A DNA stretch of 48,252 nucleotides from Candidatus Geothermocultor quzhuomuensis (GTDB taxonomy: Bacteria > Actinomycetota > Aquicultoria > Geothermocultorales > Geothermocultoraceae). The translations under genes were made by a program, and so were the position numbers. Below, piece after piece: positions 30,606-37,658 of this stretch. The notes below the pieces were generated by a model. The model saw nothing but the letters and a program-made list of their open reading frames with translations, searched no databases and was not told the DNA's origin. The first letter of the stretch is position 1, and every line of letters begins with the position of its first letter. The stretch covers positions 1-48,252 of the forward strand of contig JACVJC010000018.1 in assembly GCA_015711795.1 (NCBI GenBank). Direction: 5' to 3'.

Positions 30606-30651
30606 AAAAGAAGAAAATGAGCTTTTTGTAAACAATTGTTAAGGAAGAAGA

Positions 30652-31122
30652 ATGGGAAAAAGGAAAAAGAGTTGGCAAGAAAAATTACTGGATAGCAAAG
30701 ACCTGCCGCGAGTTGAGAAAATTCCAGAAAAAAGGAGTAAGAAGTGGGGAAGAGGAACAGTTGTTATTCCTGCTCCCATTGAAGTAAATGAAATTATGAG
30801 CAAGGTTCCCAAGGGGAAACTTATCACGATTAATGATATTCGGAAAAAACTTGCTCAAAAACATGGTGCTACCGTTGCTTGACCAATAACTACGGGCATT
30901 TTTGCCTCAATTGCGGCTCGTGCGGCCGAAGAGTTAGCTGTTCAAGGAAAACCAATTACTCCCTATTGGCGAACTTTAAAAATGGGTGGAGTTATCAACG
31001 AAAAGTACCCTGGAGGAGCTGAGTATCAAAAAAAGCTTTTAGAGGGAGAGGGGCATACTGTCCTTAAAAAAGGTAAAAAATTTATTGTCCTTGATTATGA
31101 AAAAGCTTTGATTAAATTGTGA
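30652..31122 (+). CDS. MGMT-family (alkyltransferase-like) protein with in-frame TGA, candidate selenoprotein
   Basis: The frame from the ATG at 30652 reaches TGA at 30880-30882 (codon 77), then continues without a stop for 79 codons to a TGA at 31120. Both halves form one conserved-looking protein: PKGKLITINDIRKKLAQKHG before, then ATVA-(TGA)-PITTGIFASIAARAAEE and ITPYWRTLKMGG. From memory, relatives often carry cysteine at the TGA position, which suggests selenocysteine. The C-terminal half resembles the DNA-binding domain of O6-alkylguanine transferases but lacks PCHR (here PYWR). A possible bacterial SECIS hairpin lies at 30911-30930. A nonsense mutation remains possible. With readthrough the protein is 156 residues. 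Confidence 0.7.
30894..30930 (+). promoter_or_regulatory. Candidate bacterial SECIS hairpins downstream of in-frame TGA
   Basis: Two hairpins follow the TGA. GGGCA-TTTT-TGCCT at 30894-30907 puts its loop 16 bases after the TGA but has no G in the loop. TT(G)CGGC-TCGTGCG-GCCGAA at 30911-30930 has 6 pairs plus a possible T-G pair; its loop starts 35 bases after the TGA and then reads CGTGC, with G second. Known bacterial SECIS elements place the loop roughly 16-37 bases downstream and favour an early G. This is fit by eye, not by folding. Confidence 0.4.
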
Positions 31123-34581: not shown

Positions 34582-35667
34582 GTGAAATTTGTTAATGAGT
34601 TTCGTAATCCCAAACTAGTTCAAGCTTTAATTAAAAAAGTTAGGGAGTATTCTTCTACTCCGATTAAACTAATGGAAGTTTGTGGAACCCACACCGTTGC
34701 CATTTCCAAGAGTGGACTTCGTCAAGTTATCCCTAATTCCATTACGCTTCTTTCAGGACCAGGTTGCCCCGTTTGCGTTACTTCTCATCGAGACCTTGAC
34801 CGTGCAATTACTCTAGCTAGCATCCCTAATGTTATCATTACGACCTTTGGTGATATGATGAAAGTCCCTGGTTCTTTTTCTAGTTTGTCTAAGGAGAAAG
34901 CATCAGGGAAAGATATCCGAGTTGTTTACTCCACTCTTGATGCACTTAAAATTGCTGAAGAAAACAGGGATAAAAGGATAATCTTTCTAGGAGTGGGGTT
35001 TGAAACTTCAGCACCAACAGTTGGACAAGCCATTATTGAGGCAAGAAGAAGAAACTTAAAGAATTTTTTTGTTTTTTCGGCTTTAAAGACAATGCCTTTA
35101 GTTTTGAAAGCACTTATTGATTTAGGTGAGGTAAATTTTCAAGGATATATCTTACCAGGCCATGTTAGTGTGATTATTGGGGTTAAACCTTATCAATTTT
35201 TAAGTCGAGATTATGGTATGCCAGGGGTTATTGCGGGATTTGAGCCTCTCGATGTTTTACAAACCATTTTAATGCTGGTTGAAATGATTGAAAAAGGTGA
35301 ACCTGAGATAAAGATACAATATAAGCGGGCAGTAAGTCCTGAAGGAAATTTGATTGCCCAAGAACTTTTAAAGAAAGTTTTTGAGCCTTCCGATGCCGAT
35401 TGGCGAGGGATTGGAGTTATTCCTGAGACAGGATTAAAGATAGCTGAGAATTATGGAGATTTTGACGCAGAGAGAATTTTTAAGGTTGAAACACCTGAAC
35501 CTGTTGAACCAAAAGGCTGTCGTTGCGGCGAGGTTCTTCGCGGTCTTATTTTTCCTTATCAGTGCGGGCTTTTTGCTAAAGCTTGTACCCCAGAGAGTCC
35601 AGTAGGTCCTTGTATGGTCTCAAGCGAAGGTGCTTGTGCAGCTTATTACCGCTATAATAAACTTTAA
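34582..35667 (+). CDS. hypD: Hydrogenase maturation factor HypD
   Basis: HypD is the iron-sulfur scaffold on which, with HypC, the Fe(CN)2CO group of NiFe-hydrogenase is built. The protein has 361 residues. Conserved cysteine motifs EVCGTHTVAIS and SGPGCPVCVTS are present, and the C-terminal 4Fe-4S region has KGCRCGEVLRG, YQCGLF, CTPESPVGPCMVSSEGAC. The start is a GTG at 34582 after AGGGAG. No hypC, hypE, hypF or hydrogenase gene is nearby; instead cooS follows by 38 bases. Confidence 0.95.
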   Translation: MKFVNEFRNPKLVQALIKKVREYSSTPIKLMEVCGTHTVAISKSGLRQVIPNSITLLSGPGCPVCVTSHRDLDRAITLASIPNVIITTFGDMMKVPGSFSSLSKEKASGKDIRVVYSTLDALKIAEENRDKRIIFLGVGFETSAPTVGQAIIEARRRNLKNFFVFSALKTMPLVLKALIDLGEVNFQGYILPGHVSVIIGVKPYQFLSRDYGMPGVIAGFEPLDVLQTILMLVEMIEKGEPEIKIQYKRAVSPEGNLIAQELLKKVFEPSDADWRGIGVIPETGLKIAENYGDFDAERIFKVETPEPVEPKGCRCGEVLRGLIFPYQCGLFAKACTPESPVGPCMVSSEGACAAYYRYNKL

Positions 35668-35705
35668 CAAATATGAGCTGAAATTTAAAATGAAAGCTTC
35701 TTAAG

Positions 35706-37658
35706 ATGGCTAAAAAAGAAAGGAAAGATTCTCAATCTTTTAATGAAGAACTGATTGAGAAAGCTAAAAAATTAGGAGTTTCAACTTGCTTGACTAGGGC
35801 AAAAGAAATAAAACCTTGTTCTATTGGAGTTACTGGGGCTTGCTGCTCTCTTTGCTATATGGGCCCTTGTCGTTTAGCAGGAGGAGAAGCACAAGGTGTA
35901 TGTGGTGCAACTATTGATACCATTACCTCAAGAAACTTCGCTCGCTCAGTAGCAGCTGGTGCGGCCGCCCATTCAGATCATGCTCGTGACCTTGTTTTTA
36001 CATTATTGGCTGTTGCTTTGGGTAAAATTCCTGGAATTAAGATAAAAGATGAGGAAAAATTGCGCAAAGTCGCTCTTGACTGGGGAATAAAGGTTGAAAG
36101 TAAAACAACCCTTGAATTAGCAAAAGAGGTTGCTCAAATTGCTCTTGACCAGTTTAGCTTGAAAAATAAAGAACTAAATTTTCTTTCTCGAGCCCCTCGA
36201 AAGCGTCAAGATTGTTGGAAGAAACAAGCTCTTTCTCCTAGAGGAATTGATTGGGAAGTAGCTGAAACTTTAAACCGAACTCATGAAGGAACTGACCAAG
36301 AAGCGGAAAGTATTTTAAATCAAGCTTTGAGAACAGCTTTAGCTGACGGATGGGGAGGCTCTATGCTAGCAACTGAAATTTCTGATATTCTCTTTGGAAC
36401 ACCCAAAGCAGCTCTTTCTCGAATAAATTTAGGAGTGATTAAAGAAGACGAGGTCAATATTGTTGTTCATGGCCATAATCCCTTAGTAGCTGAGGCAATT
36501 CTTCAAGTAGCAAATGAAAATGAATTTAAAAAAACTGCTCTTGAAAGAGGAGCAAAAGGAATAAATTTGATTGGTATTTGTTGCACTGCTAATGAGATTT
36601 TAATGCGTCACGGGATACCTTCAGCTGGCAATTTCCTACACCAAGAGCTAACGATTTTAACTGGAGCTGTCGATTTAATGGTTGTTGATGTTCAATGTAT
36701 TATGCAAGCTTTAGCTGAAGTAGCAAAAAAATTTCATACCAAATTGGTAACGACTTCTTCAAAGACAAGGATTCCAGGGGCAATTCATATTGAGTTTAAT
36801 CCTGAGGATTGCTTAAAGAAAGCAAGGGAAGTAGTTGAGTTAGCGATTGAAAATTTTCCAAGGCGGTTAAAGGTTAATATTCCTTCAAAAGAAACTCCTT
36901 TAGTAACTGGTTTTTCCCATGAATATATCAATTTTATGCTAGGTGGCAAATATTTAGCTTCTTTAAGGGAGCTTAATAACTCGATAATTGATGGACGGCT
37001 TCAAGGAGTTGTCGCTGTTATTGGTTGTAATAATCCACGGGTTGGGTTAAATGAAGGACATCGGTATGTGGTTAAAGAATTAATCCGAAACAATGTTGTA
37101 GTTTTTCAAACAGGTTGTGGTGCTTTAACTAACGCCCAATATGGTTTTCTTTTACCAGAAGCAATGGAGGAAGCTGGTCCTATCCTTAAGGTAATTTGTA
37201 AATCAGTGGGAATTCCACCCGTTCTTCATCTTGGCTCTTGCGTTAATAATTCTCGCCTTTTAACTATCTTTTCTCAGATGGTAAAGGATGGTGGTTTAGG
37301 AAATGACATAAGCACTTTACCAGTAGCTGGCATTTGTCCTGAGTGGAAAAGCGAAAAAGCTCTTTCCATTGGAACATATTTGGCTGCTTCTGGTGTTTAT
37401 GTCCTTTTTGGAGTAGGCTCTCCTGTCGGTGCAAGCTGTAAAGTTGTTGAGCTTATGAGTAAGGGGTGGGAAAGAAAGATTGGAGGAAAACTTGAGTTTG
37501 AACCCAATTATCAAAAGATTATTCAAAAAGTTTTAGAACACTTAAAAGAGAAAAGGAAAGCTTTAGGATTAGGGCCAGAAAGGGATAGAGAGGTTCATGA
37601 CATTGAAAGGAGAAGAGCTTTGTTATGGTGGAGGAACCAGTTAAAAGGTTGGCAGTAG
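35706..37658 (+). CDS. cooS: Anaerobic carbon monoxide dehydrogenase, catalytic subunit CooS
   Basis: CooS interconverts CO and CO2 at a NiFe-S C-cluster. The protein has 650 residues, the normal length. The N-terminal B- and D-cluster cysteines appear in KPCSIGVTGACCSLCYMGPC and GVCGA. C-cluster motifs include HGHNPLVAEA, GICCTANE, VDVQCIMQ, IGCNNPRVG, TGCGALT, LGSCVNNSR and ICPEWKSEKALSIG with the catalytic lysine. No cooC or cooF is adjacent. The downstream gene starts inside its 3' end, and hypD precedes it, so the three form an operon. Confidence 0.95.
   Translation: MAKKERKDSQSFNEELIEKAKKLGVSTCLTRAKEIKPCSIGVTGACCSLCYMGPCRLAGGEAQGVCGATIDTITSRNFARSVAAGAAAHSDHARDLVFTLLAVALGKIPGIKIKDEEKLRKVALDWGIKVESKTTLELAKEVAQIALDQFSLKNKELNFLSRAPRKRQDCWKKQALSPRGIDWEVAETLNRTHEGTDQEAESILNQALRTALADGWGGSMLATEISDILFGTPKAALSRINLGVIKEDEVNIVVHGHNPLVAEAILQVANENEFKKTALERGAKGINLIGICCTANEILMRHGIPSAGNFLHQELTILTGAVDLMVVDVQCIMQALAEVAKKFHTKLVTTSSKTRIPGAIHIEFNPEDCLKKAREVVELAIENFPRRLKVNIPSKETPLVTGFSHEYINFMLGGKYLASLRELNNSIIDGRLQGVVAVIGCNNPRVGLNEGHRYVVKELIRNNVVVFQTGCGALTNAQYGFLLPEAMEEAGPILKVICKSVGIPPVLHLGSCVNNSRLLTIFSQMVKDGGLGNDISTLPVAGICPEWKSEKALSIGTYLAASGVYVLFGVGSPVGASCKVVELMSKGWERKIGGKLEFEPNYQKIIQKVLEHLKEKRKALGLGPERDREVHDIERRRALLWWRNQLKGWQ

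Follow-up and report, generated by a model that had tools for sequence, protein, structure and literature searches.

A probable selenocysteine codon inside a conserved gene

The window analysed here, the whole 48,252-nucleotide stretch of a Candidatus Geothermocultor quzhuomuensis contig, contains a reading frame that runs through a TGA at its 77th codon. The locus therefore raises the question of whether this TGA ends the gene, marks damage to it, or is read as selenocysteine (Sec). We place the probability at about 0.92 that the gene encodes a 156-residue ATL-fold selenoprotein, with Sec77 inserted by means of SelB and a downstream hairpin; decoding of UGA77 as selenocysteine by SelB is itself very likely, as judged from comparative sequence evidence. 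The features of the locus, with the basis for each, are as follows.

30642-30650, forward strand: plausible ribosome-binding site, purine-rich AGGAAG/A directly 5' of the ATG (read in the sequence; inference)
30652-31122, forward strand: predicted selenoprotein gene, ATL-like/MGMT-fold, Sec as residue 77, 156 codons plus stop (translation; homologues aligned through the TGA; AlphaFold2 pLDDT 95.5)
30880-30882, forward strand: in-frame TGA at codon 77, very likely read as selenocysteine 77 (78/83 relatives have Cys; two Dehalococcoidia genomes repeat the TGA)
30894-30907, forward strand: hairpin 1, GGGCA-TTTT-TGCCT, 5 bp, 7 bp in both other TGA genes (folding; comparison)
30914-30928, forward strand: hairpin 2, candidate SECIS, stem CGGCT/GGCCG at 30914-30918/30924-30928, loop CGTGC at 30919-30923, 36 nt past the TGA (folding; bSECIS limits; comparison)
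30961-30972, forward strand: PYWR motif, coding for residues 104-107, in the place of the MGMT PCHR motif, with the acceptor Cys replaced by Tyr 105 (Tyr in 81/83 relatives; profile alignment with canonical MGMT)
31120-31122, forward strand: ordinary stop, the terminal TGA (translation; TGA stops 8/37 long ORFs of the window)

Translation shows that the frame is unbroken apart from codon 77. The sequence-only reading had described 79 further conserved codons beyond the TGA, and homologues confirm this by aligning across TGA77 free of gaps, at identities ranging from 58% (a genome of the same class) up to 74% (elsewhere). Because relatives align in this way, the downstream half is no accidental frame. 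Third-position GC is alike on either side of TGA77, at 0.33 and 0.29, and the neighbouring pcrA/uvrD-type helicase has 0.28. Standard ORF calling reports a 76-aa piece alone, just the truncation that had been anticipated from ordinary annotation. Global reassignment of TGA is ruled out, since TGA terminates 8 of the window's 37 long ORFs and the selenoprotein gene itself.

Conservation and recurrence at column 77

The family sample comprises 83 members drawn from collections of genomes and viruses. Cys occupies column 77 in 78 of them; one has TGA there (L054, Dehalococcoidia), one Tyr, three Glu or Asp and none Trp. This is the sole column of the 156 in which at least 80% of relatives have Cys. 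The TGA, which had been placed on a probable cysteine, thus does align with one, and homologues that could have lacked cysteine at this column have it in nearly all cases. A UGA aligned to a conserved homologue Cys, the arrangement that marks bacterial selenoproteins, is accordingly present.

As a background control, 3 of the 83 relatives have a stray stop inside the frame, in no case at column 77. Two relatives, L025:1519-1896 (genome G018) and L043:523-981, have a stray TGA at the Trp32 column, and such relatives give a usable background rate for false internal stops. In the G018 copy, from the same class as the window, the PYWR region is scrambled as well, and the gene looks decayed. The three IMG/VR viral contigs (L108:3001-3459, L109:3001-3459 and L110:3001-3468) have Glu or Asp at column 77 and AGIF replacing TGIF; these members are possibly an altered or loss-of-function branch.

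Of 397 genomes in the phylum of the window, one matched the DNA pattern TGA-Pro-[Ile/Leu]-Thr-Thr-Gly-Ile-Phe, namely the window's own, and of 393 genomes in the class of the Dehalococcoidia genome two did (G397 and G742). Both Dehalococcoidia genes have frames that are intact except for the TGA. Comparing relatives for TGA against TGC/TGT, as had been proposed, yields the same codon in two further genomes beside a column that is otherwise mostly Cys. In a tree computed with column 77 left out, the two Dehalococcoidia TGA genes pair up inside Dehalococcoidia Cys sequences and stand apart from that of the window; two changes are required on the best tree. A single origin of all three TGA genes lowers the log-likelihood by 42.8 and is disfavoured by this phylogeny, while not being formally rejected (AU p = 0.054).

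Selenocysteine machinery of the genome

The window's genome (1.76 Mb in 38 contigs, listed as 100% complete) carries selA, selB, selC and selD clustered on contig C13, the full set that a genome encoding selenoproteins should have. The selC gene has the anticodon TCA (UCA in RNA) and scores 77 bits; SelB has 629 aa and scores 398 bits; SelA and SelD were identified by eye from their sequences. An absence of selB and selC, which would have counted against selenocysteine, is thereby ruled out. Among the other TGA carriers, G397 has selC (tRNASec) and SelB, and G742 has SelB; a search of G742 for selC (tRNASec) did not find it, possibly because of assembly incompleteness.

SelD of the window's genome contains a TGA of its own, in the context KLVKKAG-U-ASKISPSDL, read 5' of the called ORF. 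It lies at L019:2343-2345 on the reverse strand (17342-17344 on contig C13), and ordinary calling opens SelD at a TTG that lies too far in (306 aa). The TGA in KAGUASKISP is at what we take to be the catalytic Cys/Sec position. After it comes an 8-bp stem with the loop GUC at a distance of 17 nt, which makes a textbook bacterial SECIS. At least one further gene of this organism therefore shows the expected selenoprotein design. The two genes of this one organism are alike in having UGA for Sec and a SECIS behind it, a candidate one in the window gene; they differ in that SelD is a long-known kind of selenoprotein and has another fold.

These results bear on the explanation that the TGA is either an artefact of sequencing or assembly or a nonsense mutation of recent origin, in what is in truth a Cys77 gene or a new pseudogene. 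Metagenome-type assemblies do carry stray stops, as in 3 of the 83 relatives at other positions, and the copy in the same class does look decayed. The TGA, however, falls on the only conserved Cys column, no other break interrupts the frame, two further genomes share the codon, which makes a base-calling error unlikely, and the window's genome both makes Sec and has a second TGA-coded protein in SelD. We consider this explanation highly improbable.

The genome also has a second SelB (contig C6:72797-74964; L020:8795-10964, reverse strand), of 639 aa and 36% identical to the first. Directly 5' of it lies a tRNA-Cys with anticodon GCA, an 8-bp acceptor stem and a U before CCA, which exceeds the tRNA-Sec model cut-off. 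Similar selC*-selB* pairs are known in deltaproteobacteria, and some bacteria have an opal anticodon in this system (PMC7609411); the anticodon in the window's genome is GCA. A further four genomes of the class (G003, G020, G002 and G018; L147:2695-2783, L148:1656-1745, L127:1389-1478 and L128:1373-1465) likewise have this tRNA-Cys adjoining a SelB, and the pair is therefore conserved in the class. Its Sec-like tRNACys was considered as a decoder of UGA77 and rejected on account of the GCA anticodon.

Readthrough of UGA77 by some other tRNA, whether a Trp near-cognate or an opal-reading tRNACys, would place Trp or Cys at residue 77. The pairing of the second SelB with a Sec-like tRNACys lends this some plausibility, since such systems carry an opal anticodon in some bacteria (PMC7609411), but the GCA anticodon is unable to read UGA, Trp occupies column 77 in 0 of 83 relatives, and the genome has a dedicated tRNASec(UCA). 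The chance that this explanation holds is minute.

Hairpins downstream of the TGA

Selenocysteine insertion at UGA77 would call on a signal in the mRNA just downstream. The sequence-only reading had pointed to a GC-rich hairpin with its loop about 35 bases beyond the TGA, and folding places the loop of hairpin 2 at 36 nt. The bSECIS model (PMC13188914) allows a loop of 3-9 nt, a stem of 4-16 bp, a G within the first two loop positions, a spacing of 16-37 nt and an energy of at most -7.5 kcal/mol. Hairpin 2 falls within the structural limits, having the loop CGUGC with G second, a 5-bp stem and a spacing of 36 nt; the energy limit is reached by a 49-nt segment (-12.4 kcal/mol), hairpin 2 alone giving -6.9.

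Folding past the TGA thus recovers the hairpin, but its energy is ordinary: the 60-nt fold after TGA77 has -14.3 kcal/mol with z = 0.15, which is not exceptional in single-sequence folding. Among synonymous recodings of the window region, 12-24% fold as stably, as against fewer than 1% for the Dehalococcoidia TGA genes. An Rfam search gave sub-threshold noise only. Because the single-sequence fold is not significant, the case for a SECIS is built on comparing TGA genes with Cys genes.

In that comparison the three distinct TGA genes all have helix 1 complete (5/5 pairs), as do 5 of 85 other members; helix 2 is complete (5/5 pairs) in 3/3 and 7/85, and both are complete in 3/3 and 0/85. The TGA sequences served to choose the helices in the first place, and coding constraint is common to all compared genes, so these counts amount to support and not proof. 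Both helices are kept in 0.6-1.6% of synonymous recodings of the same peptides, the region being alanine-rich coding sequence that favours GC-rich palindromes. Hairpin 2 is closed at the top by U-G, C-G and U-A, respectively, in the three TGA genes.

Fold and family of the encoded protein

The protein had been assigned to the MGMT family. What stands of this is a distant relationship to PF01035 and an MGMT fold; what does not is full membership, for the match to PF01035 scores 22.3 bits, below the curated cut-off of 27, and the Cys of PCHR is missing. PF01035 is matched at E <= 0.01 by 53 of 56 relatives, and a profile comparison of the family with canonical MGMTs gives E = 3.9e-6, which indicates homology at a distance. 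Among NCBIfam models no MGMT model matched, and an L7/L12 match of 16 bits, where the cut-off is 84, was discarded as noise. A sequence search of the PDB returned no match, and the fold search alone gave matches.

The AlphaFold2 model has a pLDDT of 95.5, and its best PDB matches in Foldseek are S. pombe Atl1 alone and with DNA (3gva/3gx4), at probability 1.00 and TM 0.73-0.74 on target, with MGMTs next. The acceptor motif PCHR has become PYWR, with Tyr in 81 of 83 relatives, so the acceptor Cys that defines an MGMT is lacking, and an MGMT fold that lacks it is what defines an ATL. From sequence and model together, the protein is better termed ATL-like/MGMT-fold than MGMT. Profile alignment shows about 16 extra residues in the family on the N-terminal side of the recognition-helix motif, and in the model a long helix spans residues 78-97 with residue 77 at its N-terminal end.

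That TGA77 is a true stop, of the ordinary sort that ends 8 of the window's 37 long ORFs, and leaves a truncated 76-residue protein with a remainder untranslated or separately made, is scarcely credible: the cut would hit the start of the recognition helix, and the conserved downstream half has its first usable start (ATG/GTG/TTG) at codon 111, already 3' of PYWR.

Besides this protein, the genome encodes a canonical MGMT that has PCHR. No conserved gene neighbourhood emerged from a comparison of six loci; aconitase-like genes adjoin the Dehalococcoidia copies, and unrelated genes lie elsewhere. In the window, a hypD-like gene and a carbon-monoxide dehydrogenase-like gene (650 aa), recognised by eye at 34582-37658 near the selenoprotein gene, fit an anaerobe.

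Comparison with known proteins

The sequence-only reading knew of no described selenoprotein of this family, which is wrong at the Pfam level. PF01035 is already among published predicted selenoproteins through ABB14497.1, a 'methylated-DNA-protein-cysteine methyltransferase' (PMC13188914, PMC9312934), and one GOS ocean metagenome sequence is likewise listed as a predicted PF01035 selenoprotein (PMC2398784). ABB14497.1, compared here by its published listing alone, resembles the window protein as a predicted selenoprotein of the same Pfam/COG family; the window protein differs in scoring under the PF01035 cut-off (22.3 versus 27 bits).

With the O6-alkylguanine-DNA alkyltransferases MGMT, Ogt and Ada-C the window protein shares the domain fold, but it lacks their acceptor Cys and its Sec is located elsewhere. 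ATLs carry Trp or Ala in PxHR. The window protein is like ATL proteins such as S. pombe Atl1 (3gva/3gx4) in having the MGMT fold without the acceptor Cys; unlike them, it has PYWR and the family-specific insertion of about 16 residues, which lengthens the recognition helix and bears the Sec or Cys.

Proposed function and implications

On the selenoprotein reading, SelB with GTP and Sec-tRNASec would bind the mRNA hairpin just 3' of UGA77, and insertion of selenocysteine there would yield the 156-residue protein. The product would bind DNA, perhaps alkylated or otherwise damaged, and DNA binding is likely given the predicted ATL-like fold. Its selenolate would then be a reactive nucleophile or a redox centre at the DNA interface. 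That Sec77 acts in this way is a possible but doubtful proposal, which draws on conservation and the predicted fold. Since the MGMT acceptor Cys is Tyr in PYWR, Sec would not be the classical alkyl acceptor.

Residue 77 is likely the reactive site of a poorly studied family. That a family lacking the usual nucleophile keeps this Cys, and has repeatedly exchanged it for Sec, is easier to reconcile with a catalytic or redox role than with a structural one. More speculatively, the genes may represent an undescribed ATL-like selenoprotein family whose reactive centre has shifted from the PCHR Cys to a Sec or Cys where the extended recognition helix has its tip; on DNA this residue would serve as a redox switch or as an alkyl acceptor of a new sort.

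The family has at least 580 members in bacteria and archaea, which are filed as 'MGMT-like' yet lack the MGMT nucleophile. Reading the TGA as selenocysteine would correct an annotation that cuts the gene at 76 residues. Because UGA recoding in bacteria is spent almost solely on residues that perform chemistry, Sec at column 77 would point to the family's active site and make its function testable.
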